The translations under genes and the position numbers were made by a program. The notes under the pieces were generated by a model that saw only the letters and a list, made by a program, of their open reading frames with translations, was not told the DNA's origin and made no database searches. From Crambe crambe (Eukaryota > Porifera > Demospongiae > Poecilosclerida > Crambeidae), in assembly GCA_963924555.1 (NCBI GenBank), contig OZ004594.1:3317563-3381562 (forward strand): 64,000 nt of DNA, read 5' to 3'. Positions within the stretch are counted from its first letter, which is position 1, and each line of letters starts with the position of its first letter. Shown here in pieces: positions 1-32,859 of the stretch.

Positions 1-31
1 CTTGGAGACACCTGACCATACATGTAGCTAA
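1..31 (+). CDS. 3' end of an SRCR-array receptor gene (partial, enters from left)
   Basis: The first 31 bases read in frame as LETPDHTCS and then TAA. This matches the last codons of the unit at 8570-10014 (around 9978-10014) almost base for base, and the match continues for about 200 bases into the 3' flank. It is therefore the end of the tail exon of another receptor unit, which shows that the array extends left of the window. Only nine codons are visible, so nothing can be said about the rest of the protein. Confidence 0.6.
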   Translation, partial: LETPDHTCS

Positions 32-737
32 CATGCATGTGAAGTAAGATTGAACTGCAACATAAGGATGTATACATAACACCAAGAAATACATGTAGAC
101 ATGCACGCACACACAAAGCTTATTGTTAATCAAATGTAGCTATATAGCTATGTACAGTAATGTTTATTGTACTATTTTTTGTGGCTAAGTCTAAAATTAA
201 CATTGTCTATTTATGCATAAACATTATCAGAGAGTGCGGTAGCACTCTCTAAGTAGGGATGGCAGGTCAAAGTCCATAGGACAGTATAAACTAAAAACTC
301 TTCTTTCTCTTCTACCCTTACTCTACAGGTTCTCAGAAGGCTACAGTGAATTATTATATCTACAAAGATGAGAGGAGAATGTTCAAAAGCCAAAAATTCA
401 TTCGCCAACATAAGAAAAAAACGAGTTCTAAAATTGACTTTTCGTTCTTTTTCTTTATAATAATAATAATAATAATAATGTATAAGATCGACGTACCGAC
501 TTACTGGCTATAGTCATCAAAATTCTGCTTTGGCCATCTCTTAGAGCGGCACCTAGAGGCTGATCTTTTGCTATTAGTTTTGACTAAGGCTCTACTTCAC
601 TATTCGATAGCACTCGGAACACAGCTGCTAATCTTTCTACGCCATTTTAAAGGGGGCGGGGCTTATGGGCGGAGCCACGTAAGCTTAAGTTTAGCTATAG
701 CCAAGGTCTTCATTCATTATCTGATGATGTTCCAGCA

Positions 738-1447
738 TAGACTATAGAGGTTCCAGAATGGACTGGAAATGATTAATTACATCCGCCTTGCGGTGTTCCG
801 TATATTTATGGTAATACTTACCGGATATTGTATTCTGGGCCGGCTGTTTCCATCAATTAATTAACTGTCTAGTGAATTTCTACAACCAAATATGTACCCC
901 AAATGGATAAAAACAATACCATGCAACACTGCAAACTTTATATGAACTGCTTATATTACAGTATGAGCTGGATAGGTTAAACTTGGTCCTAGAAAATTAC
1001 GCAAAGCAGGTATACTATTTGACAAAGAAAGGTGTAGTAGTTAGTAACAATGTAGTAGAAAGTTGATATGTATCTTTTAAAACAATTTACTAACATGTAC
1101 TTCAAGTCCTCAACCACATTAACTATGGATGATAGAACTACTTCAGGAGATAAAATTACACAAAGTATTTATATGCAATTTTAACTGCTAGAGCACACTT
1201 TAACTCGAGTTTTGCTCTGACAATAATCCCAGGGTCTTGGCATCTTGTAGTATAGTCTCCCTGGCAGAGTTCAGCCTCTTCATAGCCACTTACAAGCTTG
1301 TACAGTTAACCACTAAAGTGATCTTTCCTGTTCATGGAGATACAGCTGCAGCGCAATAGGCGCAACACGGATATCACACGACCGGAAGTGCTTGTTAATA
1401 TTAATTTAATAGGCGTTTCCAGTCCATGTAGGAACCTATATAGTCTA
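738..1447. mobile_element. Candidate MITE bounded by 32-bp inverted repeats
   Basis: Bases 738-769 (starting tagactatagaggttcc) are the reverse complement of 1416-1447 with a few mismatches. The 710-bp interval has no open frame longer than about 60 codons. It lies within the larger inserted block. A clear target-site duplication was not found, so the superfamily is not assigned. Confidence 0.45.
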
Positions 1448-1665
1448 TGGTTCCAGTCACTCCTTGCTGAATTACAGTACAGATGCTCATCCTATAGTAG
1501 CATTATAGCCAGTACTTGGCTGTAGTGTAGTCAGCTCACTTCACCATGCCGTGTACATGTCATTTACATTGCTGTTGCTGTAAAGTTTTATATCAACAAA
1601 ACTTAAATAGCTAAACAAATTCTTCAACCAGAGACACTGTATGTACCTACAAAAGAGGTTTATGT

Positions 1666-1843
1666 AGAGCTGGCTTTGTATAGTACTGTACTGTTGCCTC
1701 CCTCATTCAACTTCAAGCACTAAGAAAAAAGGATAGAAACAAGTGAGCGTAAAAAGAGCTGGCTTTGTATAGTACTGTACTGTTGCCTCCCTCATTCAAC
1801 TTCAAGCACTAAGAAAAAAGGATAGAAACAAGTGAGCGTAAAA
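1666..1843. repeat. Two-copy tandem duplication, 89-bp unit
   Basis: The unit beginning agagctggctttgtatag at 1666-1754 is repeated without visible change at 1755-1843. Identity this high indicates a recent duplication. It is non-coding. Confidence 0.9.
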
Positions 1844-2313: not shown

Positions 2314-2760
2314 CAAGTGAATGCAAAAAATTTCTTCGAAATAAAAATGTGAAGTAGGGATGCTATTATAACTGCAGCTTCATTATGAAAACCAAGTACT
2401 GCAGCATCAAAGCAGTATGGCCCAAAAATCTAGCTGGAATATGTATTATAACTGCATGCAAGAGAGTGAACTTAGTGAAGTGACCCTTACCCATCATCAA
2501 GTACAAGATACTATTCCTACTTCACTCCCATGATCAAGGGCCAAGGGAGTGAAGTAGGAATAGTATCTCGTACTTGATGATGGGTAAGGGTCACTTCACT
2601 AAGTTCACTCTCTTGCATGCAGTTATAATACATATTCCAGCTAGATTTTTGGGCCATACTGCTTCGATGCTGCAGTACTTGGTTTTCATAATGAAGCTGC
2701 AGTTATAATAGCATCCCTACTTCACATTTTTATTTCGAAGAAATTTTTTGCATTCACTTG
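2314..2760. repeat. Near-perfect palindrome, two 216-bp arms with 15-bp spacer
   Basis: Bases 2314-2529 are the reverse complement of 2545-2760. Only two mismatches were seen by eye, one in the agcatcaaagc/agcatcgaagc segment and one in the gtacaagat/gtacgagat segment. The spacer 2530-2544 is atgatcaagggccaa. The arms end sharply at caagtg/cacttg. A decayed relative of the outer arm sequence lies near 1835-1930. Such a structure fits a fold-back element or a recent inverted duplication, and its transcript would form a long hairpin. Confidence 0.9.
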
Positions 2761-2945
2761 TATAACTATACATCTACCATATCCCCCCCAAAATTACATC
2801 TACCAATACAGCACATACTAAAGGGCTCTGGAGAGAATATACCATGTCATTCAAAACATCAAGAGAAAGAAATCATAGCATAGAAACATACAACTGTTTG
2901 ACAATTCCACCTTGTAAGTGCTCAATGCAACTACTCCAGTATCCA

Positions 2946-3166
2946 GCATAGTTCACATGATGCACAGTCCACTGGTACCACTGGTCGGTCCCAAACGTGG
3001 CAACACATCGAACATCCAGGCTGATCTAACTACTTCCACATACGACATAATCCGGAAGTATGATGACCTTTCTGACCTCTCCACAGGGGAGGAAATGTAC
3101 CATAAGTATCGGAGCAGAAATCTCAAGGAGGAAAAGGAAAGTATCATGTTTTGGGGAAGTATATAG
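2946..3166 (+). pseudogene. Orphan cytoplasmic-tail exon fragment of the receptor family
   Basis: An open frame here encodes TTSTYDIIRKYDDLSDLS followed by GEEMYHKY and an acidic, lysine-rich end. It is clearly related to the tail of the 8570-10014 unit ([10 protein letters not shown] then ERIYHVI). STYDII keeps the S-x-Y-x-x-I spacing, but the later motif is YHKY rather than YHVL. No signal, SRCR or transmembrane exon was found in the preceding 2.9 kb, which is inserted DNA. The best reading is a tail exon cut off from its gene, although a spliced use cannot be excluded. Confidence 0.5.
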
Positions 3167-3621: not shown

Positions 3622-4952
3622 ATGAATTCTAACTCCCTGAAGCAGGTACATGAACTGCTAGTCTACATTATGCTCTTCCAACTCCAACTAAATGGTATGA
3701 GCAATTTTTGATTCACAAAAGATACTGCAGCTGTAGAGACATGTGAGCAAGGTGATGTAAGACTGATGAATGGAACTGAATCAGATTCTGCAGGACGTGT
3801 GGAGATATGCTTACCTCATAGGAACACTGGTATGGGGAACAGTGTGTCACAAAGGTTGGGACATAATGACGCTAGAGTGGTGTGTCGTCAGTTAGGATTC
3901 AAAACCAGTACACTACCAGGTACCTCTAGTTAATTGTATTGTATGAAGGGCAGCAGTTTATAGTGATTCTATGCTATATTGAAGGTCCCATTGCCTGCAG
4001 GCTTGCCTGCTTTGGGGAAGGGACTGATCCAACACGCTACATGAATAATACTGATTGTAGTAGCACTGAAACTAGATTGGTAAACTGTGCAAGATCAGTA
4101 AAAGAAGGCCTCTGTGATCACAGTAGAGATGCTGGAGTGATATGTGGTAATCTAACACTATACTGTAGTTAGCTCAATGTATACATGTATCATGAATGCA
4201 TATTACTATGAGTTATCTACCACATGCAGAGTTATCCACAGCAAATGAATTGCACACTTGCGGTGACCTCAGTCCAACATTTCTTTAGTACCAGTCCAGG
4301 GGTCACGGCAATCAAAGTTGCAGGACTAGCTTGTGGTCTGGGATCCTTAACTGCTGTCATGACCTTGATAATTACTGTGGGTGAGGTTCTAGGATGGGTA
4401 TGGTCATGTCACAATAGGATAAAAAATTTCTCCATCCAGAACAAAGTGTAAGTAGCTATAAATTATGCTAAAAGTAACACCTTATATACAATGCAATATA
4501 TCCAGCACAAAAACTCAGATGACACAAAACCCTGCCTAGCTGTGCCGAATTATCAAATCTAATCCAAAAGATCCCCCTGACCCTATATCTTCCACATTAT
4601 ATGAAGACATCACTGGGATAGACAGTCATCCTCAAAAGCTGGAGGAAGATTATAATGTACTGCAACAACATCAAGTGGGAGAAAAGAAGCATCAAGTCCA
4701 ATATGAACAGCCTGACTATTCAAATGTTTTCCCCTCTGAGTTGTGCCAAACAGTTGAGTGTGGTCAGCAAAATACATTGGCTACCAATTCTCTATCCTTC
4801 ATGTCACAAGCTTATGATGACATCATTGGTGTTGGTAGCCACCCACAACCCCCAAAGGTGGAAGATTATAATGTATTGCAACACAAACCTCAAACATTAA
4901 GAAGAGTGGAAGAGGAAGAGTATCAAGTTCAGGGGGAATGGGAGTCTCAATA
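3622..4952 (+). pseudogene. SRCR receptor unit A, decayed copy
   Basis: All five exons of the unit seen at 5186-6643 are present: signal exon 3622-3694, SRCR first half from about 3731, SRCR second half from about 3986, transmembrane exon from about 4231, tail exon to 4952. Compared with its neighbour it carries an 11-base deletion near 3817 and a 1-base deletion near 3863 that together restore frame but scramble the WGTVC strand. It also has a 50-base deletion in the stalk near 4236 that shifts frame into a stop, and a 12-base deletion at 4537 that creates an in-frame TAG right after NPA. The tail would otherwise keep YEDI, YNVL and YQVL motifs. It is called a pseudogene on these breaks. Confidence 0.8.
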
Positions 4953-5185
4953 AAATACATAATTGTCCAACAGGCCAAGTAGTTGACCTACCACTAACTT
5001 AACTAATAAAACTCATTCCCAACAAAACTGTTGTCATAAATAAGTATTATCAAAAAAATTAGTTATCATAAACTATATAATCGCATATAATAATTCTTGC
5101 TACTACCTATACCTGCTTAGAGAGAGATTCTTTCATCTCTCAGTCTGCACATGTAGAAAAATAATTACTTTATTAGCTAGCTACT

Positions 5186-6643
5186 ATGAATTCTAACTCC
5201 CTGAAGCAGGGACACATGCTACCTAAACTGCTAGTCTACATTATGCTCTTCCAACTCCAACTAAAAGGTATGAACAATTTTTATTTACAAAAGGGATGAA
5301 AGTGTCTCCTCCATATGTAGCTACTGTAGCTGTAGAGACATGTGAGGAGACATGTGAGGAGCAAGGTGATGTAAGACTGGTGAATGGAACTGAATCAGGT
5401 TCTGCAGGACGTGTGGAGATATGCTTACCTCATAGTGATAGTAATGGAACACTGGTATGGGGAACAGTGTGTCACAAAGGTTGGGACAATAATGAAGCTA
5501 GAGTGGTGTGTCGTCAGTTAGGATTCAACACTAACACACTACCAGGTACCTCTAGTTAACTGTATTGTATGAAGGGCAGCAGTTTATAGTGATTCTATGC
5601 TATATTGAAGGTCCCATTGCCTGCAGGCTTGCCTGCTTTGAGGAAGGGACTGGTCCAATACACTACATGAATAATACTGATTGTAGTGGCACTGAAACTA
5701 GATTGGTAAACTGTGCAAGATCAGCAAAAGAAGGCCTCTGTGATCACAGTAGAGATGCTGGAGTGATATGTGGTAATCTAACACTATACTGTAGTTAGCT
5801 CAATGCATACATGTATCATGAATGCATGAGTCATCAGTGATACTACCACATGCAGAGTTATCCACAGTGGTGAACACCATCACACAGTGTACTGCAACAG
5901 TGACCAGTGAACAGCAGCAAATGAATTGCACACTTGCAGTGACCTCAGTCCAACATCTCTTTAGTACCAGTCCAAGGGTCACGGCAATCAAAGTTGAAGG
6001 ACTAGCTGGTGGTCTGGGATCCTTAACTGCTGTCATGACCTTGGTGACTGTGGGTGTGATTCTAGGATGGGTATGGTCATGTCACAACAAGATAAGAAAT
6101 TTCTCCACCCAGAACAAATCGTAAGTATAAATTATACTTAAAAGTAACACCTTATATGTACCATGCAATATATCCAGCACAAAAACTCAGATGACGCAAA
6201 ACCCTGCCTATCCAAATGTAGAGCTGTGCCGAATTATCAAATCTAATCCAAAAGATCTCCCTGACCCTATATCTTCCACATTATATGAAGACATCGCTGG
6301 GATAGAAGACAGCCATCCTCAAAAGCTGAAGGAAGATTATAATGTACTGCAACAACCTCAATTGGGAGAAAAGAAGCATCAAGTCCAATATGAACAGCCT
6401 GACTATTCAAATGTCTTCCCCTCTGAGTTGTACCAAACAGTTGAGTGTGGTCAGCAAAGTACATTGGCTACTGATTCTGTAGATGGAAGATCCTTCACAT
6501 CATCTTATGATGACATCATTGGTGTTAGCCACCCACAACCCTCAAAGGTGGAAGATTATAATGTATTGCAACACGAACCTCAAAAATTAAGAAGAGTGGA
6601 AGAGGAAGAGTATCAAGTTCTGGGGGAATGGGAGTCTCAATAA
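5186..6643 (+). CDS. SRCR receptor unit B (signal-SRCR-TM-YxxL tail)
   Basis: This is a predicted type I membrane receptor of about 396 residues. Exons: 5186-5267, 5330-5545 (an alternative acceptor at 5294 adds 12 residues), 5611-5772, 5856-6120, 6178-6643; the phases agree throughout (1,1,1,2). Exon 1 gives a hydrophobic signal peptide. Exons 2 and 3 form one SRCR domain with [25 protein letters not shown] and a C-terminal DAGVIC. Exon 4 gives a Thr-rich stalk and a helix at 5999-6079. The tail has YEDI, YNVL, YDDI, YNVL and YQVL; SSYDDI fits the ITIM consensus and the others are YxxL/I with 13-14 residue gaps. SRCR domains commonly bind ligands outside the cell; ligand and signalling role here are inference. 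The next two units follow with a 1.69-kb period. Confidence 0.82.
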
Positions 6644-10350: not shown

Positions 10351-11190
10351 GTGTCGCTTGAGTGATTGAAATACAGCAGTGAATGAGAATGAAGTGAGAT
10401 TGGTGGAAGGAACTGATTATGCAGGACACAGAAGTTTGAGCACAGACAATTCTTCTGCCATATATATATCCTTTGAGTGTCTTCTTCATAGTTTTGTCAG
10501 CAGCAGGGAGGCTGCTGTTGTCACAAGTTGTGCACTAATACCCCGCTGGACTTGTTGACTTGTATGCTGTCCATGGTAGCACAATACAATATGCAACATA
10601 GGTTGGAGTGCATGAGAGTGACGGTAGAGCATTGAGCATCAGTCCCATGGATATATAGATAGTCCAAAATTAATCGTTATCATAAGTATAACTATTGTTT
10701 AGCAATATGTGGGTTATACTGCTAAAGAAGGAAAAAAAAAACAATTATCTATCTATACATAAACATTATACAGTTATACACATCTTGACATTTCCCTGAA
10801 AATTACATTATCAATACAAGAGTATATACTGCACATCTGCATGTTATTCCCAGGTGCTGGAGGAACTGAGTATGCAGGACGTAACTATTGTTTAGCAATA
10901 TGTGGGTTATACTGCTAAAGAAGGAAAAAAACAATTATCTATCTATACATAAACATTATACAGTTATACACATCTTGACATTTCCCTGAAAATTACATTA
11001 TTAATACAAGAGTATATACTGCACATCTGCATGTTACTCCCAGGTGCTGGAGGAACTGAGTATGCAGGACGTATAGAAGTTTGTTCTAATATCAGTGATG
11101 ATGATGGCATGGGGAACAATATGCGACATAGGTTGTGATGCTTGAGCAGTGTGTCATCAGTTGGGACAAGTAAGGAATGCGTAAATACTA
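10351..11190 (+). pseudogene. Decayed SRCR exon fragments, partly duplicated
   Basis: Three short stretches resemble the start of the first SRCR exon: 10387-10440 (EVRLVEGTDYAGH), about 10850-10880 and 11040-11110 (GGTEYAGRIEVCS). None continues into a usable domain, and frames break within 40 codons. The 10689-11072 part is a tandem duplication of a 193-bp unit. No signal exon is visible upstream, and 10015-10350 is spacer similar to 32-228 and 2761-2900. These are treated as relics of one or more receptor units. Confidence 0.6.
10689..11072. repeat. Two-copy tandem duplication, 193-bp unit
   Basis: The segment from taactattgtttagcaata to tatgcaggacg occurs at 10689-10881 and again at 10882-11072 with very few changes. 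Each copy ends in a fragment of an SRCR exon. Confidence 0.88.
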
Positions 11191-11640: not shown

Positions 11641-11843
11641 TGTTAAAGGTGTCTTTAAGCCTACTTGTGGTTAATCAAAGCACTGCTACTTGGTTGTAAT
11701 TCTAGTACAGGGACTACCACAGGGTGATATTGATACAACCCATGAAGTTTGTCGGGGTGATATCAATATCACCATGTTTTATGATAACAATGCCCAATAT
11801 GGTGCCTGAGTGGTTGTACGTACAATGTTCTTATCGCATACAG

Positions 11844-12622
11844 CCACAGAGCTTCCATCACCTTCACCATGCAGTACAGTGGTAGTAAGTACCTCCACTC
11901 AGACTAACCAGTGTGTGAATAGTGAGCAGCATGCCGTCACACAGAAAGAACATAATCCAGTGACAATGACCACCATCAAACAGTGTACACCAAGTCATAT
12001 TCCAGTGGTGACCACTATCACACAGAGAGAACAGTGTGCACCAAGTCACATCCCAGTGGTGACCACTATCACACAGAGAGAACAGTGTGCACCAAGTCAT
12101 ATCCCAGTGGTGACCACATCAACAGTGAATTGTGTTTCAGTGGTGAGCACCATCACACAGAATGACCATGTCACAGTCATAGTTGTGGAAATGAGGAATA
12201 CATCCGTGGGACAAACAGCTAGTTATGCAGGATTAGCAGGAGGTTTGGGAGTTTTAACAGCTGTCATGACTTTGCTGCTAGTAAGTGCGGTTCTAGGATG
12301 GGTGTGGTCATATCATAAGAGGACAAGAAGTTTCTCCATCAAGAAAAAGCTGTAAGTATCAATATAGTGTTGAAATGCTTAATATATTATAATCTCCAGT
12401 ACAAAAACTCAGACGACACAAAACCCTGCATATCTGAAAGTAGAACTCGTCAAATCTAATCCAATTCTCCAGACACTTATGATGATATCATTAGCCACCC
12501 ACTACCCCCCTAAGTGGAAGATTACAATGCATTACAACACAAGAAGAGTGGAAGAGGAAGAGTATCAAGTTCCGGGGAATGGGAGTCTCAACATAATAAT
12601 ATATGATGCCCCACAGACTTAG
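11844..12622 (+). pseudogene. Receptor unit E, 5'-truncated stalk-TM-tail
   Basis: The stalk/transmembrane exon 11844-12351 is open. It encodes a Thr/Ser/Val-rich stalk with repeats of CTPSHIPVVTTITQRE type and then a helix with a basic stop-transfer end. The tail exon 12400-12622 starts normally (TKTQTTQNPAY) but internal deletions move it out of the family frame, so YEDI and YNVL are lost and only EEEYQV remains before a TAG. No signal exon or usable SRCR exon lies upstream, only relics. It may be a dead 3' half or a piece spliced into another transcript. Confidence 0.6.
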
Positions 12623-13723
12623 CATTATAGACCTACCACTAGATATAATTTAAACTCATTCTAGTCCAATATTAAAAGTATTACTGCAATATACTTGATG
12701 TGTTGCTGTTAAGAAGTCCAAAATAATAAACAACTAAACACTACACAGCTATATCTTGTTGACATTCCAAACATTAGATGAGGGAAAACCATTAATAATC
12801 CTCCTCCTCTCCCCTTAGTCCAATTCCAGCAGCTCGGAAGAGCAACCAGTGACCCATTGGATTCCCTGGCTCCATGTCCACAGTCTCTCGTGACATAGTA
12901 ACATACATATAAATAAAATAGTTACAGCAGTCTATGCATGGCTTGAGTGAGATACGAGACAGAAGCTTAGCACTATGATTCGTAACTCCAAACAGGTCCA
13001 AGTGTTACTTGTACTGCTGGTCCATATCATGGGGAGTGAAATGTCACAGGAACTAGGTAAATATTTTACTAATCATGAGCATAAAGTATTCAAGACCAAC
13101 CTCCAGTCCTGAATAATAATACTAGTTTTGAAAGAGTTTAACTCTTTGTGTAGAGTCGTGAATTGGCAGGTATAAGTAAGATTGGTGGGAGGAACTGATT
13201 ATGCAGGACGAGTTCAACCCTGGAAATTGGTCAGGGTGACATCAGATAACAATACCCATGGTGCCTGAGTGGTTGTGGAATAACCTATACGTACAATGTT
13301 TTTATTGTATACAGCCACAAAGCCTTCACCATGCAACATGAGCACCACCACTCAGACCAACAAGTGTGTGAACAGCGAGCAACATACCGTCACACAGAAA
13401 GATCATAATTCAGTGATGACAACAACCATCACACAGTGTACACCAAGTCATATTCCTGTGGTGACCACCATCATACAAAGAGAACAGTGTACATTAAGTC
13501 CAGTGGTGACCACTATCACACAGATAGAATCGTGTAAGTGTACACCAAGTGATATTCCAGTGGTGACCACCATCATACAAGGAGAACAGTGTACACCAAG
13601 TCACATTCCAGTGGTGACCACATCCACAGTGAGTAGTCTTCCATTGGTGAGCACCATCACACAGAAAGAACTGAGTGTCACTGTCACACTTGGCACTACG
13701 GGAATGAAAGATGTGTCCGTGGG

Positions 13724-14150
13724 TAGGGACTGGCACATTCTGCCAGCATAGTTTTGGGAATAATAGGTCTATCAAAGCAGGAAGCATAATGCTGGCATAA
13801 TAGGCTATGGAAAGTGAACTCCATGGATGCTTTTATCATGTGTGCCTATACTATACACTGTAAAAATGAAAGTGTGTACTGCACACTAAATTGTCCCAAT
13901 ACACACACCAAAAACAAAAACAGTGTGTGAATTGGGACAAAATGGTGTGCAGTAAACACTTTTGTTTTTACAGTGTATAGCTAGCCTAGTTTGACCAATA
14001 GCTATTTACATAGTCTTCAATACATATGACATCAGCTACGAGCATAATTAAAGAATAATAGATCAGTAAAAAAAGAATAATGACTTTATACAGCTGGAAT
14101 TAAAGAATGGAATAATAGGGAAGCAAAAAAGCATAATGTGCCAGTCCCTA
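13724..14150. mobile_element. Non-autonomous hAT-like element, 427 bp
   Basis: The ends are inverted repeats: TAGGGACTGGCACATT at the left, and its complement AATGTGCCAGTCCCTA at the right. The element is flanked by a perfect 8-bp direct repeat TCCGTGGG (13716-13723 and 14151-14158). An 8-bp target duplication with a TAGGG-type terminus is typical of the hAT superfamily. There is no transposase frame, so it would need one supplied from elsewhere. The uninterrupted target is seen in the paralogous exon at about 16016-16032. Confidence 0.85.
13849..13978. mobile_element. Fold-back element nested inside the hAT-like element
   Basis: About 58 bases starting ctatacactgtaaaaa are complementary, with several mismatches, to the last 58 bases ending tttttacagtgtatag. 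The short centre is A-rich. It lies within the 427-bp hAT-like insertion and so is either part of that element or a later insertion into it. Confidence 0.7.
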
Positions 14151-15149
14151 TCCGTGGGACAAACAGCTAGTTATGCAGGATTAGCAGGAGGCTTGGGAGT
14201 TTTAACAGCTGTCATGACTTTGCTGCTAGTGGGTGTGGTTCTAGGATGGGTGTGGTCATGTCATAAGAGGACAAGAAGTTTCTCCATCAAGAAAAAGCTG
14301 TAAGTATCAATATAGCTACATAAATGTTGAAATGCTTAATATAATTATTATAATCTCCAGTACAAAAACTCAGATGACACAAAACCCTGCATATCCGAAA
14401 GTAGAGCTGTGCCAAATCATCGAATCTAATCCATCTTGTATCGATTCCCCTAACCCAATATCTTCCACACTGTATGAAGACATCACTGGGATAGACAACC
14501 ATCCTCAAAAGCTGGAGGAAGATTATAATGTACTGCAACATCCTCAAGTGGGAGAAAGGAAGTATAAAGTCAAATATGAACAGCCTGACTATTCAACTGC
14601 TTTCGCCTCTGAGTTGCACCACACAGTTGAATGTGGCATGAAAGATACATTGTCTATCGATTCTCCAGACACTTATGATGACATCATTGGTGTTGGTAGC
14701 CACCCACTACCCCCAAAAGTAGAAGATTATAATGTATTGCAACACGAACCTCAAACATTAAGAAGAGTGGAAGAGGAAGAGTATCAAGTTCTGGGGGAAT
14801 GGGAGTCTCAACATAATACATAATTGCCCCAAGCAGTATATAGACCTACCACTAACTTAAATTAATTTCATTCTAGCCCAAAATTAAAAGTATTTTATTG
14901 CAATATACTGCTAAAGTTGATGTGTTGTCGTTAAGAAGTCCAAAATAATAAACAACTCTATATCTAAACACTACACAGCTATAATTTTGTCGATATTTTC
15001 CCGAAAAATACATTATCAATACAGCACATAAGGATCTATACTGCGCAACTTCATGTTATTCAAAACATTAGATGAGGGAAAATCATGACATAGTAACATA
15101 TATATAAATAAAATAGTCTGAGTGAGATACGAGACAGAAGCTTAGCACT

Positions 15150-17620: not shown

Positions 17621-20600
17621 ATGTATCAGAGCTTCAAAAAAGTACTTGTGTCGCTACTGCTGGCTTGTATCATGGAAAATGCAGTGTGCTATCAAAGTGG
17701 AAAAGGTATTGCCACCAGAGAGAACTAGCTACTGTATAATACAGCTATGAAAATGAGTGATTAATCAACTATAAAATAAATACTGTGGGAGATATTATTA
17801 TGCATTGAAAGAATATTGTGTGTATAGGAATGACATAATACTGAAATGAACATCAAAAATCAGTATTATAGCACTAGGGTTGTTCGTGTAACATATTCAA
17901 TTGGCAATATACTCTTGTCTCAAAGTGCATGTTTCTTTATCCTTGTGAATGACAATTTTTTTAACAATTCTGTCTCCATAGCAAATACACACATGCTCTC
18001 ATTGCAATGATGTGGAAATACGAATGTATTAGAAACAATAGATTTACGATTTGATCAAAAGGCTGCAATAAATCTGGTCATGATTGAATTGCTTTTATGA
18101 TCTGTTTAATATCATTAGGAATCATAGCATAGGCCAATGATTTAGGAACCAATGTGGTTACTACAGGCACCTTAATAATCATCTACCTTAGGTCAAAGTG
18201 ATGTGAAAAGAAAATAGTCATAGAAAATAATCTATCCACATATTGCACTGTGTACTTTCAAGGTCACACATTAGATAACTCAGTGCATACTAACTGTTAT
18301 CTCCTTTAGCAATCACACCTGTGCACCACTTCAAAAAGATGAACTGGGGGTATCTTATCCTTTGCCACCACTCATGCAAGTGATCACACACCACACACAC
18401 ACCTTCCCCATTCAGTGTATGTGCTGTGCGTGCTTCTAGTCTTGTAACCCCACCCAGTGTGTAAACTTCTCTTTGGCCACACAATTCTAACTTTAGTCGG
18501 ACATTCTGTCAGAACAAATTCAAGAAGTCACATCATATAGATATCCAATGACCAGCAAAAGTGCTACAATGTCGGATCAAAGTTGGATATGGTCAGACAA
18601 AATGTCCTATCAAACTGAAACTCTTATTTTGCACACATGTCCACCTGTCTAAAAATCCTGGATCCATGGCCCTGGACATTGTCAGAGTACATGACAGAAG
18701 TTAGGGACAATTGTTCATCACAGCATGTTAGAGTAGTTATCAGAAGATTGGAAAAAATTGTTCATCACAGCATGTTATTCAATTATATACCTGGAACTAT
18801 AATACATAGAATAGGTATAATGTATACATAAGAATGAACAAAGTATACTGAAAGTGATCACAATAGCTGCTACAACTTCCTATCGTGTACATAGTAATGA
18901 CTTTTGGCTAATAATATGCAGCAAATAGAGTAGTGTGTATCACAGTCCATCCTTCGGTTCATTATAATGCACTGCGTAATCATTAAAATCCCCTCCACGA
19001 AGTATAAATATATACTATGTATTCATGCATGTAACAGTGGTAACTGCATGCATGCATGTATACTATATTCAAAAATTGATAGAAGTTAGAACTATGTATC
19101 AGAGCTCCAAAAAAAGTACTTGTGTCGCTACTGCTGGCTTGCATCATGGAAAATGCAGTGTCCCAACAAAATGGAGAAGGTATTGCCACTGGAGAGAATT
19201 AGCTACTGTATAATGTAGAGTTAAAATAAATGCTGTAGGAGATACTATTATGCATTGAAGGAATATTGTGAGTAGGAATGACATATCTGAGTTAGAATAA
19301 ATGCTGTGGGAGATATTGAAAGAATATTATGAGCAGGAATGAAACATCACCAAAATGAATAACAAATTCAGTATCATACAACATATATACTCCTGTCTCA
19401 AAGTTCACCTTGTAAATGATTCTGTCTCCATAGGAAATACACATTGCAATGATGTGGAAATATGTGCTTGTGACATACATATTATATATCTCAAATCTCA
19501 ATTTGCATGATGGGGGGGGGGGGGGGGGGGGGGGAGGAGCTCACATATTCATACCTTGGAGTCTGGATTCAAGACTAATTATAACCACACTGAATATATG
19601 CATGTTTAACAGGCTCTATAAGGCTGTTAGTCATGATTGAATAGTTGATGCCCATGCATGGATGAATGCACTCAACATGTTATTTCATCTATAGACCAAC
19701 AGTTTAGGTATACAAAGGTGGTTATGCACACATTTGCTTTTCACACTGGGATTGAGCTCACACATATGATAGCTACATTAACAACACATGGCACATTGGA
19801 AGTGATGAATGTATCAGGTTTGATACAGTTCATGATGAGTAGAGTGGTAATGTTTATTATAGGATATTTATGATCACTTATCTATTCAATCAGTGCCGCA
19901 CATTGGTGTAAATCACCTATGTATACACAAGGTTTATTGATCATATATAAATATACAGAGACTTGTAACTCAAAAGGTACCACAATGGAAAATTACACCC
20001 AAGCCATCAAAATATGCTTACCATCAGAACGTTCTGGACAAGAATTGGTATGGGGAAGATTATGCCACGGATATCCACATGATGGGATATGTAAGAACAG
20101 CATAAACAACTTACTTTTTGCATGATGCTATTATATATTTTTTGTGTGTGCAGGTTACATAAATATTTCTAATGGAGATAAAATTGATATAATATGTAAT
20201 AATGAGTATAACTGCATGGAAGCAATGAATTTCATCAGACAAATAACAAACAGCTGTTATCATTTACTGAATGATCACGGAGTGGAATGTGGTAAGGAAG
20301 ATAGATTTTATTTCAGTATGCATTTAATATGAGATTACATCATCATCTGTAGTACACACAATAGTGAGTACTATCACACAGAAAGATAAGTGCACTCGTA
20401 AAGTGGCTCTTTCAAGTACTACTGGAATTATGGGGACAGCTAAAGATACAGAAGTGCTGTCAAACAAGTGTGTGGGACTAGTAGGAGCCCTGGGAGTTTT
20501 TGCAGCTATCATGAGCTTGGGATTGATAGGTGTGGTTCTAGGATGGATGTGGTCATGTTATAAGAGAACACAAAATTCAAGTGTCGAGGAAAGGTGAGAA

Positions 20601-21447
20601 TACAAGCATGCATCATACAACCCAACTTAATATTATACTCACTTGCTTTTTACCATATTATAGAGCCAATACTTCTGCAAGTGGAGCTCATCAATCAGTC
20701 CAGTATAATAGCTCCAGTGAGCCTCGATATGTAACCCCACTTGGGCAAGTATCTGGCATCACTAGAATGGATAACCAGCCTTCACTAATGGAGGAAGAGA
20801 GGGTATATCATGTGTTAGAGCAGGAGCCTCGGGAAATGAAAGAAGAGAGGGTCTATCATGTGTTAGAGCAGGAACCTCAGGAAGTGAAAGAAGAGAGGGT
20901 CTATCAAGTGTTAGAGCAGGAACCTCAGGAAGTGAACGAAGAGAAGGTCTATCATGTGTTAGAGCAGGAACCTCAGGAAGTGAAAGAAGAGAGGGTCTAT
21001 CATGTGTTAGAGCAGGAACCTCAGGAAGTGAAAGAAGAGAGGGTCTATCATGTGTTAGAGCAGGAACCTCAGGAAGTGAACGAAGAGAGGGTCTATCATG
21101 TGATGGAGCAGGAACCTCAGGAAGTGAAAGAAGAGAGGGTCTATCATGTGTTAGAGCAGGAACCTCAGGAAGTGAAAGAAGAGAGGGTCTATCATGTGTT
21201 AGAGCAGGAACCTCAGGAAGTGAACGAAGAGAGGGTCTATCATGTGATGGAGCAGGAACCTCAGGAAGTAAACAAAGAGAGGGTCTATCATGTGTTAGAG
21301 CAGGAGCCTCAGGCAAGAATGGAAGAGAGGGTCTATCATGTGTTAGAAGAGGAGCCTCAAATGAGAGGAGAAGAGAGAGAAGGGAAGGTCATTAGAGAAG
21401 GAGAAGATAAAGCCCAGGGCCAAGAAACTACTGCTATCCTTCCATAA
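17621..21447 (+). CDS. Receptor unit H, divergent SRCR-like ectodomain with 12 YHVL-type repeats
   Basis: This is a predicted 459-residue type I receptor. Exons: 17621-17705 (signal peptide, phase 1), 19959-20090, 20154-20291, 20353-20593 (short stalk and helix), 20664-21447 (tail); all phases agree. The two ectodomain exons keep only part of the SRCR pattern: ICLPSE, LVWGRLCH and a terminal DHGVEC. The usual RLVNG start and VVCRQLGF are missing. The tail contains twelve 16-residue repeats of the form ERVYHVLEQEPQEVKE (two with YHVM, one with YQVL), so YxxL/M motifs recur with 12-residue gaps. This is at the edge of loose ITAM definitions; ITIM does not fit because Arg is at Y-2. The long first intron contains a second, frame-broken signal exon at 19094. 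Assignment of the first exon is the weakest point. Confidence 0.72.
19094..19178 (+). pseudogene. Decayed duplicate of the signal-peptide exon
   Basis: This segment matches 17621-17705 closely but has one extra A in the run after AGCTCC. The frame shift destroys the hydrophobic core, and the exon would end in the wrong phase. Flanking sequence is also duplicated from about 17350-17770, so a block of about 1.4 kb appears to have been copied. Confidence 0.7.
19512..19534. repeat. Poly-G tract (23 G)
   Basis: An uninterrupted run of G on the + strand lies in the long first intron, before a gagctcacata motif. Paralogous positions are a 31-G run at 29703-29733 and only a short interrupted gagggaggggg at about 23025. 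Confidence 0.95.
20805..21375 (+). repeat. 48-bp coding minisatellite, about 12 units
   Basis: The unit gtctatcatgtgttagagca... has a 48-base period and encodes a 16-residue repeat within the tail of unit H. Units are nearly identical at the DNA level, differing mainly as gtgaaag/gtgaacg and ttagag/atggag. Related arrays with about seven units lie at 24478-24830 and 30276-30640. Confidence 0.93.
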
Positions 21448-23463: not shown

Positions 23464-24845
23464 AGACTTGTAACTCAAAAGGTACCATAATGGGAAACAT
23501 CCCAGGTATCGAAATATGCTTACCATCAGAACGTTATGGACAAAAATTGGTATGGGGAAGATTATGCCACAGAAATCATGATGAGACATGTAAGAACAGC
23601 ATAATGTATGATGCTAGCTATTATATTTTTTGTGTGTGTGCAGGTTACATAAATATTTCTAATGGAGATAACAGTCATATGATTAGTATATGTAATGAGT
23701 ATGAAGCAATGAATTTCATCAGACAAATAACAAACAGCTGTTATCATTTAATGAATGATTGCGGAGTGGAATGTGGTAAGGAAAATAGATTCCTTCTTTT
23801 TTCAGTATGTGCTTAATATTTACTTCTGACAGAGATCACATCATCATCTGTAATACACACAGTAGTGAGGTGTACTCGCGAAGTGGTACCCACCTCAACT
23901 CTGCATCTTTCAAGTACTTCTGGAATTATGGGGACAGCTAAAGATACACAAGTGCTGTCAACCATGGGGGCAGCTATTGATACAGGAGTGCTGTCAACCA
24001 TGGGGACAGCTAAAGATACACAAGTGCTGTCAACAATGGGGGCAGCTATTGATACAGGAGTGCTGTCAACCATGGGGACAGCTAAAGATACACAAGTGCT
24101 GTCAACCATGGGGGCAGCTATTGATACAGGAGTACTGTCAAACAAGTGTGCAGGACTAGTAGGAGCCCTGGGAGTTTTTGCAGCTATTATGAGCTTGGGA
24201 TTGATAGGTGTAGTTTTAGGATGGGTGTGGTCATCTTATAAGAGAAGCGTCAAGGAAAGGTGAGAATACATGCATGTATAGAGCACTTATTTTTACTATA
24301 TATATAGAGCTGATGGTTCTGCAAGTGGAGATAATCCTACTTATTCAAGTACCTCTTTTTCTCAACCAGTCCAGTATAATAGCTCCAGTGAGCCTCGATA
24401 CATAACCCCACTTGGGCAAGTATCTTCAACACATGGCATCACTAAAATGGATAAACAGCCCTCACTACTGGAGGAAGAGAGGGTATATGATGTGTTAGAG
24501 CAGGAGCCTCGGGAAATGGAAGAAGAGAGGGTCTATCATGTGTTAGAGCAGGAGCCTTGGGAAATGAAAGAAGAGAGGGTCTATCGTGTGTTAGAGCAGG
24601 AGCCTCAGGAAGTGAAAGAAGAAATGGTCTATCATGTATTCGAGCAGGAGCCTCAGGAAGTGAAAGAAGAGAGGGTCTATCATGTGTTAGAGCAGGAGCC
24701 TCAGGCAAGAATGGAAGCAGAAGAAGAGATGGTATATCATGTGTTAGAAGAACCACCTTGGGCAAAAATGGAAGTAGAAGAAGAGAGGGTCTATCATGTG
24801 TTAGAAGAGGAGCCTGGGGGAAGAGAGAGAAGGGAAGGTCATTAG
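23464..24845 (+). pseudogene. Receptor unit I, no signal exon, about 7 YHVL-type repeats
   Basis: This unit is a paralogue of unit H. Exons: 23464-23589, 23644-23775 (divergent SRCR-like halves), 23833-24259 (stalk and helix), 24308-24845 (tail); they join in the family phases. The stalk contains three copies of a 24-residue repeat (GTAKDTQVL then GAAIDTGVL), a 72-base coding repeat absent from unit H. The acceptor used in H is mutated here (ctgtag to ctgtaa), so an upstream ctgacag is assumed. The tail has about seven YxxL-type motifs, and its last codons are frame-shifted against H. The signal-peptide exon is missing because of a deletion upstream, so the unit is probably not secreted and is called a pseudogene. 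A distant first exon is possible. Confidence 0.6.
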
Positions 24846-25796: not shown

Positions 25797-27502
25797 ATGA
25801 ATTATAAGTGTGAACAGTTACTTATGTTAGTACTTCAACTGCTAGTCAGTATCATGGGGAGTACAGTCTTTAGACAAGGAAGCCAACATGGTTAGATTAT
25901 GATACCTCCATGGAGAACTACAGTATTATTATCTTGTCACGCAGTGCCGTGAACGAGGTGCAGTGAGGCTAGTCAATGGTATAGCATCAGCTCCATAGGA
26001 CGTGTAGAAATCTGCTCATATGATGCCAATGGTGGATTAGTATGGTATGCCACAGACATTGGAATAACTCTGATACTCAAATAATGTGCCATGAGCTTGG
26101 ATACACAGAGCTAGGTTACTTTACAAGAACTTTCTATGCAAAGGGGCCTGTATACGTGCACAATCTATTTGGCATTAATATATGTACACCCCTACTATAA
26201 TTTTACCCATGCAGGTCCAAAAATAACTTGCACATCTGCCTGTTTTGGGAGTGGTAATGGTCTGATATTCATAAAGGACAATGAAAATTGTAACATACTG
26301 ACTAGTACTTGCATCAGACTAGTAGAAAATAATGAATGTGATCACAGCATGGACACTGGAGTGATGTGTGGTAAGGATAAGTAGCTATAGTTGATATAAC
26401 TTCTGTAACCTCTGCTGTTAAAAAACATATAAGCGGTCTTATCTCTCTAATGCATTGTGTTCAAATTCAGAATTTGGTTGAAAATTTTACAAGATGATTC
26501 TTAAATACATGATATCATGCTATGATCATAGAGATTCCACTGCAAGGGATGCAATGTGCTGCGGTAGCAAGAGAGATACACTTTCCTCAGACACAGCAGT
26601 GTACCCAGTGGTGACCACTATCACACGAAAAGAACAGTGTACACCAAGTTATATTTCAGTGGTGACCATATCCACAGTGAGTTGTGTTTTATTGGTGAGC
26701 ACTATCACACAGAAAGAACTGAGTGCTACAGTCACATGCAGCACACTTGGCACTATGGGAACTATGGGAGAAACGGCTAATTGTGCAAGACTAACGGGAG
26801 ATCTGGGAGTTTTAACGGCTGTAATGATGCTAATGTTAGTAGGTGTGGTTCTAGGGTGAGTGTGTTCATGCCACAGGAAGAAAGATAGTTTTTCCATCAA
26901 GAAAAGGTAAGGGCTAGCAGGAAAAATGATAGTCTCAAAGGTTAGCATTATAATGATTCAATGTTGCATGCATCATAATTGTGTTATAGAACCAATACCA
27001 CAAGAATGACAACTCAAATGATGCCTGCCCACACGAATAACTCCCACTCTGAACCATGCCAAACAGTTCAAAATAGTTCCATTGATCCACAAGACACACT
27101 CCCTATTGGCCTCCCTATTTCTTCCACATACGATGTCACCAGGAAGGAGAACCTCCCCCTCCCCTTTGAGGTGGTGGAGGAAGAGGGAATATTAGAGCAG
27201 AAGCCTCAAGCAAAGGAAGAAGAAGAAGAGGAGGGAAAGTATCATATTCTGGCAGTTGGAGGTACATGTGTATGATGTCCCAAGCCAAAAAGCAAGTCCC
27301 CTTGCTTCATCCTTGTGGAGGTTCCCATGTCCAATCCAGTGCCATTGATAGTCAACCTATACTGCCTCCTGCTATGGGGCCAAATGCTGGCTCCACACTG
27401 CTCACTGTAGGCAACACCACCATGAATCGGGCATGCAGCGGCTATGCCAGAGCTATCCATGATAGAAACCTCCACTCAGCAGCAACCACCAGTTCGTCTT
27501 GA
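25797..27502 (+). pseudogene. SRCR receptor unit J, decayed
   Basis: The signal exon 25797-25890 is intact (phase 1). The first SRCR exon (from about 25951) is broken compared with unit K: an in-frame TAG follows AATGGTATAGCATCAGC, the WGTLC strand lost bases, and a TAA replaces the codon after TQI. The second SRCR half (about 26215-26370) is intact. In the stalk/helix exon the Trp codon after VVLG is TGA (26857-26859). The tail exon from 26992 keeps STYDV and YHIL, then a stop at 27273. Relative to unit G it has about 185 extra bases (about 27292-27477) before the shared terminal codons. With several independent stops this is a pseudogene. Confidence 0.8.
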
Positions 27503-29347: not shown

Positions 29348-29439
29348 ATGTATTAGAGCTCCAAAAAGTACTTATGTTGCTTGTACTGCTGGCTTGTATT
29401 GTATCATGGAAAATGCAGTGTCCCAACCGAATGGAGAAG
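29348..29439 (+). pseudogene. Decayed signal-peptide exon of unit L
   Basis: This matches 17621-17705 but reads ATG TAT TAG, a stop at the third codon. A later ATG at 29374 opens a hydrophobic stretch (MLLVLLACIV) but ends in a phase that does not fit the next exon. Confidence 0.65.
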
Positions 29440-29733: not shown

Positions 29734-29734
<1 letters not shown>

Positions 29735-29933: not shown

Positions 29934-30713
29934 AAGTGCTGTCAAACAAGTGTGTGGGACTAGTAGGAGCCCTGGGAGTTTTTGCAGCTATCATGAGCTT
30001 GGGATTGGTAGGTGTGATTCTAGGATGGATGTGGTCATATTATAAGAGAACACAAAATTCAAGTATTGAGGAAAGGTGAGAATACAAGTACAGACCCCAA
30101 CTTAATATTATACTCACTTGCTTATTACAATAATTATTATAGAGCGAACACTTCTGCAAGTGGAGCTGTCCAGTATAATAGCTCCAGTGAGCCTCGATAT
30201 GTAACCCCACTTGGGCAAGTATCTTCAACACATGACATCACTACAATGGATAACCAGCCCCCACAAATGGAGGAAGAGAGGGTATATCATGTGATGGAGC
30301 AGGAGACACGGGAAATGAAAGAAGAGAGGATCTATCATGTGTTAGAGCAGGAGCCTCAGGAAGTGAAAGAAGAGAGGGTCTATCATGTGTTAGAGCAGGG
30401 GCCTCAGGAAGTGAAAGAAGAGAGGGTCTATCATGTGTTAGAGCAGGGGCCTCAGGAAGTGAAAGAAGAGAGGGTCTATCATGTGTTAGAGCAGGAACCT
30501 CAGGCAAGAATGGAAGCAGAAGAAGAGAAGGTATATCATGTGTTAGAAGAGGAACCATCTCGGGCAAAAATGGAAGCAGAAGAAGAGAGGGTCTATCGTG
30601 TGTTAGAAGAGGAGCCTCAAATGAGAGGGGAAGAGAGAGAAGGGAAGGTCATTAGAGAAGGAGAAGATGAAGCCCAAGGTCAAGAAACTACTACTGCTAT
30701 CCTCACACAATAA
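29934..30713 (+). pseudogene. Receptor unit L, lacks ectodomain, 7 YHVL-type repeats
   Basis: Transmembrane exon 29934-30075 and tail exon 30143-30713 are open and in the family phases, encoding about 237 residues from the helix onward. The two SRCR-like exons of unit H are absent. The sequence passes directly from the equivalent of about 19740 to the transmembrane exon, which indicates a deletion. The signal exon upstream has a stop. The tail keeps VQYNSSSEPRYV and seven repeats with YHVM, YHVL and YRVL, two of them with extended MEAEE linkers. It may be a dead unit, or could supply a membrane-tail cassette by trans or read-through splicing. Confidence 0.6.
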
Positions 30714-31010
30714 ATCGTATTCATAATTTGGTTTTCATTATCATGTTATCTGATCGTATAGTAAGCAAAGGGATGAGAGCGTATGTCACTCCATAATGCT
30801 GGTGGTTACTAAAAATAGACAACACATGCAGTTGGTTACTGACCCCTTACCATGCAATCCAAGGGAAGGAATTTGCATGACGCAAACTTCATAAGAAGGA
30901 AAGAAGGTAGTCAATGAATTGGGTACTACCATGTGCCCAAACCATAAGCATGCAGTTGCTTTATTATACAGAGCAACATGGAGTGACTAAATTTGAATTA
31001 GTACGTCATG

Positions 31011-31195
31011 CACTGCAAAAACGAAATTGTTAATTTAACAAACCTACTTAGTTAGGCGAGGTAAATCATTTGAAATCTGTCAAAATGACACTATATTTTT
31101 GGTGAATATAATTATATAACAAACTGGTTATTTCAACAATGATTAGTCTTGCCTAACAGTTATGTTTATAGAAATAACAATTCTGTTTTGCAGTG
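31011..31195. mobile_element. 185-bp MITE with CACTGCAAAA termini
   Basis: The ends are inverted repeats (cactgcaaaaacgaaattgt and acaattctgttttgcagtg). The paralogous spacer near 25495 (tcatggccttggag) lacks it and shows the empty site, so it inserted after duplication. The termini resemble the cactgtaaaaa ends of the fold-back at 13849-13978. Confidence 0.75.
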
Positions 31196-31540
31196 TGGCC
31201 TTGGAGATACAGAATACTAGAGCAGATTGAATGATTATACATTCACCAACAAATCATAAAACTTATAGCAAGTAGATCACATACCATATATAGCCATATA
31301 TTATAGCTAACATTATGATACAGTTACACATCAGCATCACGTGGCATGTTTTAGATATTGAAACTGGTATGGAATAGTTATCAAAACAACACTCATTGAG
31401 AACAACACTCATTGAGAGTAGCTATGTATCTCAAATTAGATCATAACAGTAATCAAGAAATCAATTCAAACATAGCTACGTAGTATAGTATGACTTTGAC
31501 AAAAAGAAATCTTTATTGAAAGTTTAAGTGTAGTGCAGAT

Positions 31541-32859
31541 ATGAATTATAGGTGTGAACAGCTACTTATGTTAGTACTTCAACTGCTAGTCAGTATCATG
31601 GGGAGTACAGTCTTTGGACAAGGAAGCCAACATGGTTAGATTATGATACCTCCAATACCATGGGGAACTACAGTTTGAATATTATTATCTTGTCATGCAG
31701 TGCCATCATGCAGTCAACGAGGTGCAGTGAGGCTAGTTAATGGTAGCATCAGTTCCATAGGACGTGTAGAAATCTGCTCATATGATGCCATTGGTGGATT
31801 AGTATGGGGTACACTATGCCACAGACATTGGAATAACACTGATACTCAAATAGTGTGCCATGAGCTTGGATACACAGAGCTAGGTAAGCTAAATACTACT
31901 TTACAAGAACTTTCTATGCAAAATGGCCTGGGTATACACAATCTATTTGGCATTATGTACACCCCTATAATTTTACCTATGCAGGTCCAAAATTAGCTTG
32001 CACATCTGCCTGTTTTGGGAGTGGTAATGGTCCGATATTCATAAAAGAAAATGATAATTGTAACATACTGACTAGTACTTGCATCAGACTAGTAGAAAAT
32101 AATGAATGTGATCACAGCATGGACACTGGAGTGATATGTGGTAAGGATAAGTAGCTATATAGTTGATAAAAACATATGTATTGTGTTCAAAATTCAGTAT
32201 TTGGTTGAGAATTTATAACAAGATGAAATAAAGATTCTTAAATACATGATATCATGCTATGATCATAGAGATTCCACTGCAAGGCATGCAATGTGCTGCG
32301 GTAGCAAGAGAGGTACAATTTCCTCAGACACAGCAGTGCACTCAAAAAATTACCCAATGTACAAGAATGGCAGGAGGTCTGGGGATTATAGCATCTCTCA
32401 TGAGTTTGGGACTTATGGGCGTGGTTCTAGGATGGGTGTGGTCGTGTAAAAGGAAAAAGAGGAGCTCTACCATCAGGGAGACAGCCCAGAGGTGAGAATT
32501 GTAGTCTGTATGTTATTGATCAGTTCCATAAACTTCATAGAGATGATATCTCACGCCATGAAACAAGTGAAGAAATCACGAAAAATCCTGCTTACAAGAT
32601 AACAGTTCACTCCGAAGCATGCCAATCCGTTGAATACGGTACGATTGATCCCCAGGATTCACAACCACCCCCTCCTAATAGTTCTCCTGATCAAACACCC
32701 TCCATTTTATATGATAATATCATCGATAATCCTCCAAGGAGCTGGAGGGTGGAGGGAGAACACAGGGTACGTGATGCACAAGACACATCCCAACACACTG
32801 TCAGACTCCCAAGAGAAGAAGAGGTGGAAGCCAATGAAGTACAAATCTCTTATGTGTAA
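31541..32859 (+). CDS. SRCR receptor unit K with two ITIM-consensus motifs
   Basis: This is a predicted 312-residue receptor. Exons: 31541-31634 (signal peptide), 31701-31883 and 31985-32140 (one SRCR domain), 32305-32491 (short stalk and helix), 32541-32859 (tail); phases agree (1,1,1,2) and the total is divisible by three. The SRCR domain has AVRLVNG, GRVEI, WGTLCH, IVCHELGY, ACFGSGNGPI-like spacing and a terminal DTGVIC. The helix is followed by a KRKKR stop-transfer signal. The tail differs from all others: no YHVL repeats, but VEYGTI and ILYDNI both fit (S/I/V/L)xYxx(I/V/L), and it ends ISYV. This suggests recruitment of SH2 phosphatases, hence an inhibitory role, which is inference. It is the last unit of the array. 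Confidence 0.8.

Follow-up and report, generated by a model that had tools for sequence, protein, structure and literature searches.

The 64,000-nucleotide stretch of the demosponge Crambe crambe analysed here (the window: GenBank assembly GCA_963924555.1, contig OZ004594.1, C17:3317563-3381562 in our numbering of the 119 contigs of this 143-Mb genome) contains part of a tandem array of genes for small membrane receptors with SRCR-type ectodomains and tyrosine-rich tails, and in this array ectodomain and tail are decoupled: some neighbouring genes carry one SRCR head and unrelated tails. The receptor array is real and larger than described in an initial annotation of the same DNA, which had the anatomy right in outline and wrong in evenness and extent. 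Two points are new, namely that a tail made of tyrosine blocks is common to several gene clusters of the genome, and that tails are exchanged behind homogenised SRCR heads. We consider it rather likely that the products are single-pass SRCR receptors signalling via phosphotyrosine and SH2 proteins, with a swapping of tails like that of paired receptors.

Within the window the array lies on the + strand only, at ~3.0-32.9 kb, and comprises 12 units bearing a transmembrane (TM) exon, named U1-U12, plus relics, where about eleven units confined to positions 1 to 32859 had been counted. Searching 60 kb of upstream sequence for the modules, and the whole genome for the TM, extends it to 34 TM exons over 84 kb, ~51 kb of it upstream of the window. 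The first of these exons is at C17:3266477 and the last at 3349842-3350030; 22 of them (units -1 to -22) precede the window, bases 1-31 of the window end a further unit, no unit was seen from 32 to ~2900, and U12 is the downstream end of the array. The genes were modelled by hand first and then by spliced protein-to-DNA alignment across the whole array. Since the queries of the aligner were our own hand models of U3, U4, U7, U8, U9 and U12, the spliced alignment tests the other units only. With U3 as query U2 was recovered as modelled by hand, and upstream units came out with the same plan; three of the 34 units (-10, U5 and U10) were missed, the aligner falling on a neighbour there. The one-strand tandem array proposed before is borne out, as is the coexistence of intact, chimeric, truncated and dead copies, which is seen in the spliced models. 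A complete SRCR-type gene has a signal exon, two SRCR exons, one exon for stalk and TM and one exon for the tail, and the intron phases are 1, 1, 1, 2 in the complete models of five window units (1, 2 in U7) and of three genes from other clusters (L023, L025A and L025B, the last phase of L025B being read by eye). The introns of U2, U3, U4 and U12 measure 49-170 bases, and eight complete models have a single hydropathy peak, at the TM, with one more at the signal peptide in U12. Five of the 12 window units (U2, U3, U4, U7 and U12) are complete from signal to stop.

The SRCR domain itself was found by Pfam above the cut-off in U2 (E 1.9e-20), U4 (E 6.3e-21) and U12 (E 4.7e-13), so that the SRCR-type ectodomain named in the initial annotation holds for these units under a hidden Markov model check, and with them for U3, the SRCR part of which equals that of U4 in protein sequence. 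All six SRCR-type models scanned (U2, U4, U12, L023, L025A and L025B) have the domain, with one SRCR stretch per model among the models scanned. Pfam gave no hit for U7 and none for the ectodomain of U8, and no Ig family appeared in the scans of U2, U4, U7, U12, U8, L023, L025A and L025B. The SRCR label was dropped for the U8 ectodomain, which is SRCR-like by exon position only; the hits of whole U8 (Ribosomal_L13 and two others) contain no stretch that passes and seem to be artefacts of its repeats. The claim that every unit is built from the same modules stands for the general plan and fails for U7 (no SRCR), U5 and U6 (stalk-type), U8 and U9 (Cys-containing ectodomain) and U11 (no ectodomain).

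The decoupling is seen most directly in the neighbours U3 and U4, the SRCR proteins of which are 100% identical while their tails (tail A and tail C) share 28%. At the DNA level, in 50-base steps, the two units are 94-100% identical across flank, signal, SRCR and stalk, and from 7711, inside the TM exon, identity falls from 1.00 to 0.78, 0.62 and 0.44 per step; such a pattern, with its drop inside the TM exon, is what recombination or gene conversion acting on the ectodomain half leaves behind. Among the 276 pairs formed by 24 of the 34 units (-14, -10, -6 and U5-U11 left out), 27 combine an SRCR at least 85% identical with a tail below 50%. Synonymous divergence (dS) was lower in the SRCR than in the tail in 241 of the 276 pairs; against the TM the SRCR had the lower value in 172, and the medians were 0.21 for SRCR, 0.38 for TM and 1.15 for tail. 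These pairs depend on one another, broken units are among them, and where two tails are unrelated their alignment is poor and the value was capped. Within the nine tail-A-like units, SRCR dS was lower than tail dS in 31 of 36 pairs (one tail value being saturated), the exceptions being -21/-20, -9/-8, -9/-4, -9/3 and -4/3, and the proportion of synonymous differences (pS) pooled over these 36 pairs was 0.151 for SRCR, 0.328 for TM and 0.402 for tails. The birth-and-death evolution proposed earlier agrees with the mixture of intact and broken copies, but it is not of a simple kind, as the units differ most in the tail rather than in the ectodomain. Recombination in the array would keep the SRCR exons of some neighbours identical while joining them to different TM and tail exons, and with identical SRCR exons on different TM and tail exons one binding surface could feed different outputs. 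Parallel series of units (-19/-14, -18/-13 and -17/-12, and -8, -7 and -6 beside -3, -1 and U1) point to block-wise duplication of several genes at once.

Beyond the array, the TM search of the whole genome gave at least 94 TM exons at E<=0.01 from 96 candidates, of which 34 belong to this array, 16 lie at C17 5.38-5.50 Mb, 23 on C16, 16 on C11, 4 on C10 and 1 on C3. Four short stretches from other clusters (L023-L026) were examined, and in two of these clusters L023, L025A and L025B give complete models with the exon plan of the window units and an SRCR domain, the second intron of L025B starting with GC. The stretch L024 (C11) has a stalk, a TM and a scrap of tail, with no SRCR seen in the stretch examined; at its positions 2590-3000, on the minus strand, a gene of the TM family was read with a short Cys-containing stretch at the place expected for SRCR. 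Ectodomains may therefore vary between clusters. Tail searches tie the other clusters to each other (32 and 27 matches), and the array is joined to them via the U7 tail (E 0.007) and the U4 tail (C11:4081138-4081323, E 4e-4), while tail A is confined to this array in the genome search (23 of 23 matches). A local curiosity of about eleven genes is ruled out by the further 51 kb of array together with the presence of the TM and tail family in other clusters.

The tails share a set of blocks, NPTYS, QYSSxGPQD, STYD[IV]I, YQVL or IYHVL, YEVP and DYSxLQHQ. They were aligned in 24 rows from four clusters, consisting of 19 of 20 fetched tail matches (of the 32) plus L023, L025A, L025B, U7 and U4; L041 was left out because it is identical to L025A, and each row was read in the frame richest in tail motifs (a list that includes tyrosines) and cut at stops. 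Over 104 columns, the six with a consensus tyrosine have a mean conservation of 0.88 against 0.55 for the others (permutation P 0.0003), and tyrosine ranks first in conservation among the residue types, although the choice of rows by similarity to one tail raises conservation generally. Tail A contains EEEYQVLG, and tail B has VYHVLEQEP-type units recurring every 48 bases, with 11.8 copies of the 48-base repeat in U8. The array tails thus look like rearrangements of shared tyrosine blocks, as we infer from their sequences.

Alternatively, the locus could consist for the most part of duplicating debris under relaxed constraint, with a few ordinary receptors in its midst and tail exchange as a by-product of unequal crossing-over and of no consequence for signalling. 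At least four of the 12 window units (U1, U5, U6 and U10) are broken, an element is inserted in U6, and the near-identical tandem copies point to recent duplication, all of which suit such a history. Against it stand the conservation of the tyrosine columns across clusters and the state of tail C, which is intact in U4 and, with two frame changes relative to the U4 tail in units -1 and -7, still has frames open for 185 amino acids (aa) in both. Moreover, the ratio of nonsynonymous to synonymous differences (pN/pS) pooled over the 36 pairs is below 1 for the tails (0.60), though single close pairs exceed it (1.43 for the -9/-4 tails and 1.44 for the -9/3 tails, also a few short TM comparisons). 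We regard debris as an unlikely account of the locus as a whole. For the SRCR part of the same 36 pairs pooled pN/pS is 0.56, which does not indicate that the domain, taken in its entirety, is under diversifying selection, so that positive selection for SRCR diversity, considered as a possibility, is not seen. Constraint on tail and SRCR appears to be weak, without overall positive selection.

As for the motifs around the tyrosines, YxxPhi occurs 81 times in 19 tails against 23.3 expected, with none of 2000 shuffles as high, and takes 81 of 136 tyrosines in the tails against 23 of 66 in the ectodomains; these counts come from related tails, among which the tail of unit -6 is mis-modelled, that of U6 is cut short and that of L025B was missed by the pattern. 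The dense YxxL/I-type tails of the initial annotation are confirmed in that YxxPhi is above chance and the tyrosine columns are constrained across clusters. The pattern of the immunoreceptor tyrosine-based inhibition motif (ITIM) is [SIVL]xYxx[ILV], the activation motif (ITAM) is a pair of YxxL/I, and the related switch motif is called ITSM. ITIM-like motifs number 17 in the 19 tails against 6.5 expected (one of 2000 shuffles as high), for example SPYDDI in U3, STYDVI in U4 and U7 and ILYDNI in U12, and are absent from U8, U9 and U11; TLYEDI (U3), VQYSSI (U4) and VEYGTI (U12) are further tail motifs fitting the ITIM or ITSM patterns. ITAM-like pairs, with a spacing of 6-12 residues and V also allowed, number 7 in U8, 2 in U9 and 3 in U11 against 0.16, 0.09 and 0.06 in shuffles, one in U4, which is not clearly above shuffles, and none in U3, U7 and U12.

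The same tails could instead belong to scavenger or phagocytic uptake receptors, in which SRCR would bind particles and NPxY and YxxPhi would be signals for clathrin adaptors and phagocytic adaptors, with no signalling of ITIM or ITAM type. NPxY occurs 9 times in the 19 tails against 0.4 expected (a value reached in none of 2000 shuffles), few tail blocks are conserved as well as NPTY across the four clusters, and YxxPhi suits adaptor binding. However, the conserved blocks YEVP and QYSSxGPQD suit neither signal well, and a sorting function hardly accounts for the 12 YHVL-type repeats of one tail. Acidic residues, which are typical of kinase substrates before a tyrosine, are enriched ahead of the YxxPhi tyrosines (76 of 208 against 330 of 1829 overall, the tail B repeats weighing heavily). 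Uptake alone therefore seems to us doubtful as the explanation of these tails.

For phosphotyrosine signalling, we assume that this locus belongs to a multigene family encoding small type I membrane receptors, each with a signal peptide, one SRCR domain (or a Thr/Cys stalk only), a single TM helix and a tail, ~100-270 residues long, in which blocks around tyrosines are conserved. The SRCR domain would bind a ligand outside the cell, a tyrosine kinase would phosphorylate the tail, and SH2 proteins would dock there. Tails A, C and D, with ITIM-like motifs, might recruit a phosphatase with two SH2 domains, and tail B, with its YHVL row every 16 residues, would be more like a multi-dock of ITAM type. 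Surface expression, phosphorylation, docking partners, ligand, opposing signals and an immune role would all follow from this scheme. Separate exon matches at one locus (C18:6539084-6540942, minus strand) give SH2, SH2 and tyrosine phosphatase in this order, which is that of the SHP phosphatases. At C5:1417826-1522148 (L039 in part) lies a tandem array in which SH2 exons form close pairs, roughly a dozen of them, with Kelch-repeat reading frames between the pairs in the stretch examined; it is possible that these paired-SH2 genes are expanded readers of doubly phosphorylated tails. In addition, C9, C12 and C13 have many clustered matches to tyrosine-phosphatase domains, at least 183 in all.

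Several observations weigh against receptors that signal in this way with exchanged tails. The same SRCR is found with tail A and with tail C, and each of these two tails has an ITIM-like motif, so that opposing signalling is not indicated. Tail B accompanies a non-SRCR ectodomain or none at all, rather than the shared SRCR. Many YxxPhi sites are without the -2 residue of the strict ITIM, the ITSM-type motifs (3 against 1.0 expected, a count reached in 166 of 2000 shuffles) do not clearly surpass chance, and L023 and L025A have one YxxPhi apiece. Furthermore, YxxPhi and NPxY are also endocytosis signals, and the near-identical copies could partly be assembly error.

Public proteins bear on the variation of the array. 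Those from a public contig of 1213060 bases (P0126, P0129, P0132, P0133, P0136 and P0138) match the array at 98.9-100%, while the seven exon-derived proteins from a contig of 1131183 bases (P0121-P0124, P0127, P0135 and P0139) match it no better than 59-96% over their longest alignments, with higher values for some over a part; the best full-length place of P0121 in the whole genome is at 77%, with 87% over part. Since tail A is found only at this array, the 1131183-base contig probably carries this array in a version of different content, be it that of another haplotype, another individual or another species, and given the two ranges of identity the array content may differ between haplotypes or individuals; variation of the array between assemblies is thus suggested. 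This difference between the two contigs is what could be expected of polymorphic receptors for self and non-self, the allorecognition function offered in the initial annotation. The ectodomains within the array are homogenised, not diversified, and the SRCR ratio below 1 likewise speaks against it, so that we hold allorecognition to be very unlikely. P0131 was rejected as expression evidence, as it reads through an intron donor and so looks genomic rather than transcribed. P0137, from a 2398-base contig, has a tail with NPTY, QYSALGPRDTP, YEVPIQ and YNVLQHK and is 44% or less identical to this genome, which suggests that it is perhaps from another species and that the tail blocks exist elsewhere. 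P0134 has a distant TM with GVVMGWVWSCHRKK.

The features of the array in the window are listed in Table 1. The in-frame TAG of U1 is common to unit -6, the tail exon of which is apparently split by a ~5.5 kb insert with a retroelement-like reading frame (L009/L010, at about -14.2 to -8.8 kb of the window), and U1, its relative sharing the TAG, is without this insert. One of the relics upstream of U5 sits in a 195-base direct repeat (10689-10883/10882-11073, 97% in self-comparison), and the element in U6 is presumably hAT-like, judging from its inverted repeats and 8-base flanks. The first intron of U7, of 335 bases, retains an SRCR-like scrap by reading. In U8 and U9 the frame stays open between the first exon recognised and the stop, and a signal exon was looked for in both and none was found; U11 is without ectodomain and has a signal-like relic at 29374-29439. 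Upstream, units -8, -5, -4, -3 and -2 were modelled from the first residue of the query to the stop with no frame change, and unit -12 is open with no modelled start. Before the first relic lies a near-perfect palindrome of 449 bases (2313-2761, 97%) resembling a foldback element or one of the type of miniature inverted-repeat transposable elements. On the 3' side the array is followed by DUF4457 exons, DNAJC11, an ankyrin-repeat protein and a kinesin fragment; the ankyrin-repeat protein (44098-48597) is a single open frame of 1499 aa with a Roc-GTPase match under the cut-off of Pfam.

Table 1. Units, relics and insertion of the receptor array in the window (positions from the first base of the window)
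Feature	Position	Exons	Strand	Basis
3' end of unit -1 tail exon (tail type C)	1..31	last exon -443..28, stop codon 29-31	+	spliced alignment; tblastn
Relic of tail exon (type C-like, STYDII)	3002..3145		+	tblastn E 0.001
U1, broken: two frameshifts in SRCR part, in-frame TAG in tail	3622..4953		+	spliced alignment
U2, complete: signal, SRCR, short stalk, TM, tail A, 396 aa	5186..6643	5186-5267, 5330-5545, 5611-5772, 5856-6120, 6178-6643	+	hand model; aligner with U3 query
U3, complete: tail A, 396 aa	6876..8337	6876-6957, 7024-7239, 7305-7466, 7550-7814, 7872-8337	+	hand model (itself an aligner query)
U4, complete chimeric gene: tail C, 392 aa	8570..10014	8570-8651, 8718-8933, 8999-9160, 9244-9505, 9558-10014	+	hand model
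SRCR-like relics upstream of U5: fragments of first SRCR exon	10370..11130		+	sequence reading
U5: Thr/Cys stalk and TM open, tail exon decayed, no intact SRCR	11810..12600		+	
U6: signal, Thr/Cys stalk, TM, tail A, no SRCR; stalk/TM exon split by 427-base element	12975..14823		+	
Element inserted in U6: 427 bases, terminal inverted repeats TAGGGACTGGCACATT, 8-base direct-repeat flanks (target duplication) TCCGTGGG	13724..14150		.	
U7, complete without SRCR: signal, Thr/Cys stalk repeats, TM, tail with STYDVI, 338 aa	15150..16557	15150-15231, 15567-16155, 16212-16557	+	hand model
U8: Cys-containing ectodomain, TM, tail B	19959..21447	ectodomain 19959-20090, 20154-20291; TM 20353-20593; tail B 20664-21447	+	
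U9: as U8, tail B with NPTYSS kept	23464..24845	23464-23589, 23644-23775, 23833-24259, 24308-24845	+	
U10, broken: frame change in first SRCR exon, stop in TM exon	25797..27502		+	
U11: only TM exon and tail B exon	29934..30713	TM 29934-30075; tail B 30143-30713	+	
U12, complete: diverged SRCR (52% to U3), tail D, 310 aa	31541..32859	31541-31634, 31701-31883, 31985-32140, 32311-32491, 32541-32859	+	hand model

No named protein with the TM and tail of U2 was found (0 hits at E<=1 among 195 candidates), and a profile of eight members gave 19 proteins at E<=10, none of them named, from 8000 scored candidates that were limited by length. In the search with full U2 the 120 best of 660 hits all carry SRCR domains, and no relative could be named via TM and tail. 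No description of such a family of SRCR receptors with tyrosine tails in sponges was found in the literature searched, which left most subscription papers outside its reach, and the literature joining sponge, ITIM and SRCR came down to one review, the part of which available to us makes a general remark only on early ITIM and ITAM origins. The suggestion of the initial annotation that the receptor system may be undescribed is supported within these searches as far as TM and tail are concerned, whereas the pattern of swapped tails is itself known from vertebrate paired receptors. We tentatively put forward as possible that this early-branching animal has a genome-wide paired-receptor system, independent of that of vertebrates, on an SRCR scaffold. 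It would comprise dozens of single-SRCR receptors, spread over several clusters, with one ancestral tail of five or six tyrosine blocks, ITIM-type and multi-YHVL tails swapped behind homogenised ectodomains, array content differing between haplotypes, and expanded tandem-SH2 genes as readers. If this is true, a shared recognition domain with exchangeable phosphotyrosine tails would be a general solution that a basal animal arrived at with SRCR as its scaffold. The origin of ITIM- and ITAM-type signalling would then be testable in one genome with a countable gene set.

The known systems closest to this array each share some of its features (the cited papers being drawn on in part). Large tandem expansions of SRCR genes exist in the sponge Amphimedon queenslandica, which has 296 SRCR genes, 158 of them in tandem arrays; those described have two to six SRCR domains, with three exons per SRCR in most linked genes, unlike the one domain in two exons here, and the first of two parts of the Results makes no mention of tyrosine-motif tails (PMC10855680). 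More than 600 SRCRs are given for the transcriptome of Halichondria panicea (PMC8242945), and an oyster has an Ig receptor with an ITAM (PMC11999971). Hydractinia Alr and Botryllus FcoR are invertebrate receptors with tyrosine motifs of ITIM or ITAM type in their tails, comparable to the ITIM-like motifs and ITAM-like pairs here, as far as the consulted parts of the sources go, but they differ in having Ig-type ectodomains and the genetics of allorecognition, where we have SRCR and know the genes alone. The ectodomain of Alr is Ig-like. That of FcoR is Ig plus sushi, and its tail also has the bare YxxI/L/V core motif (PMC12065747). The WC1 co-receptors of bovine gamma-delta T cells are likewise a multigene family of SRCR TM proteins with tails of different types; they are mammalian and have several SRCR domains, unlike the one SRCR per model here, and no homology to WC1-like tails was seen, the full-U2 search matching through SRCR among the matches listed and the TM and tail search giving none. 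WC1 molecules have up to 11 SRCR domains, one having six, and their genes lie in two regions; some members have highly similar extracellular domains with different tails, and a tail tyrosine is needed for signalling (PMC3511184). The vertebrate paired receptors Siglec-11/16 and CEACAM1/3 have opposing signals, which the tails of the array do not indicate, and ectodomains of Ig type, where the array has SRCR heads. The members of each pair have near-identical ectodomains and different outputs, and Siglec-11/16 are kept alike by gene conversion (PMC5701461, PMC5112662). It is in this combination of near-identical ectodomains with different tails, found here in the 27 pairs given above, that the sponge array resembles them.

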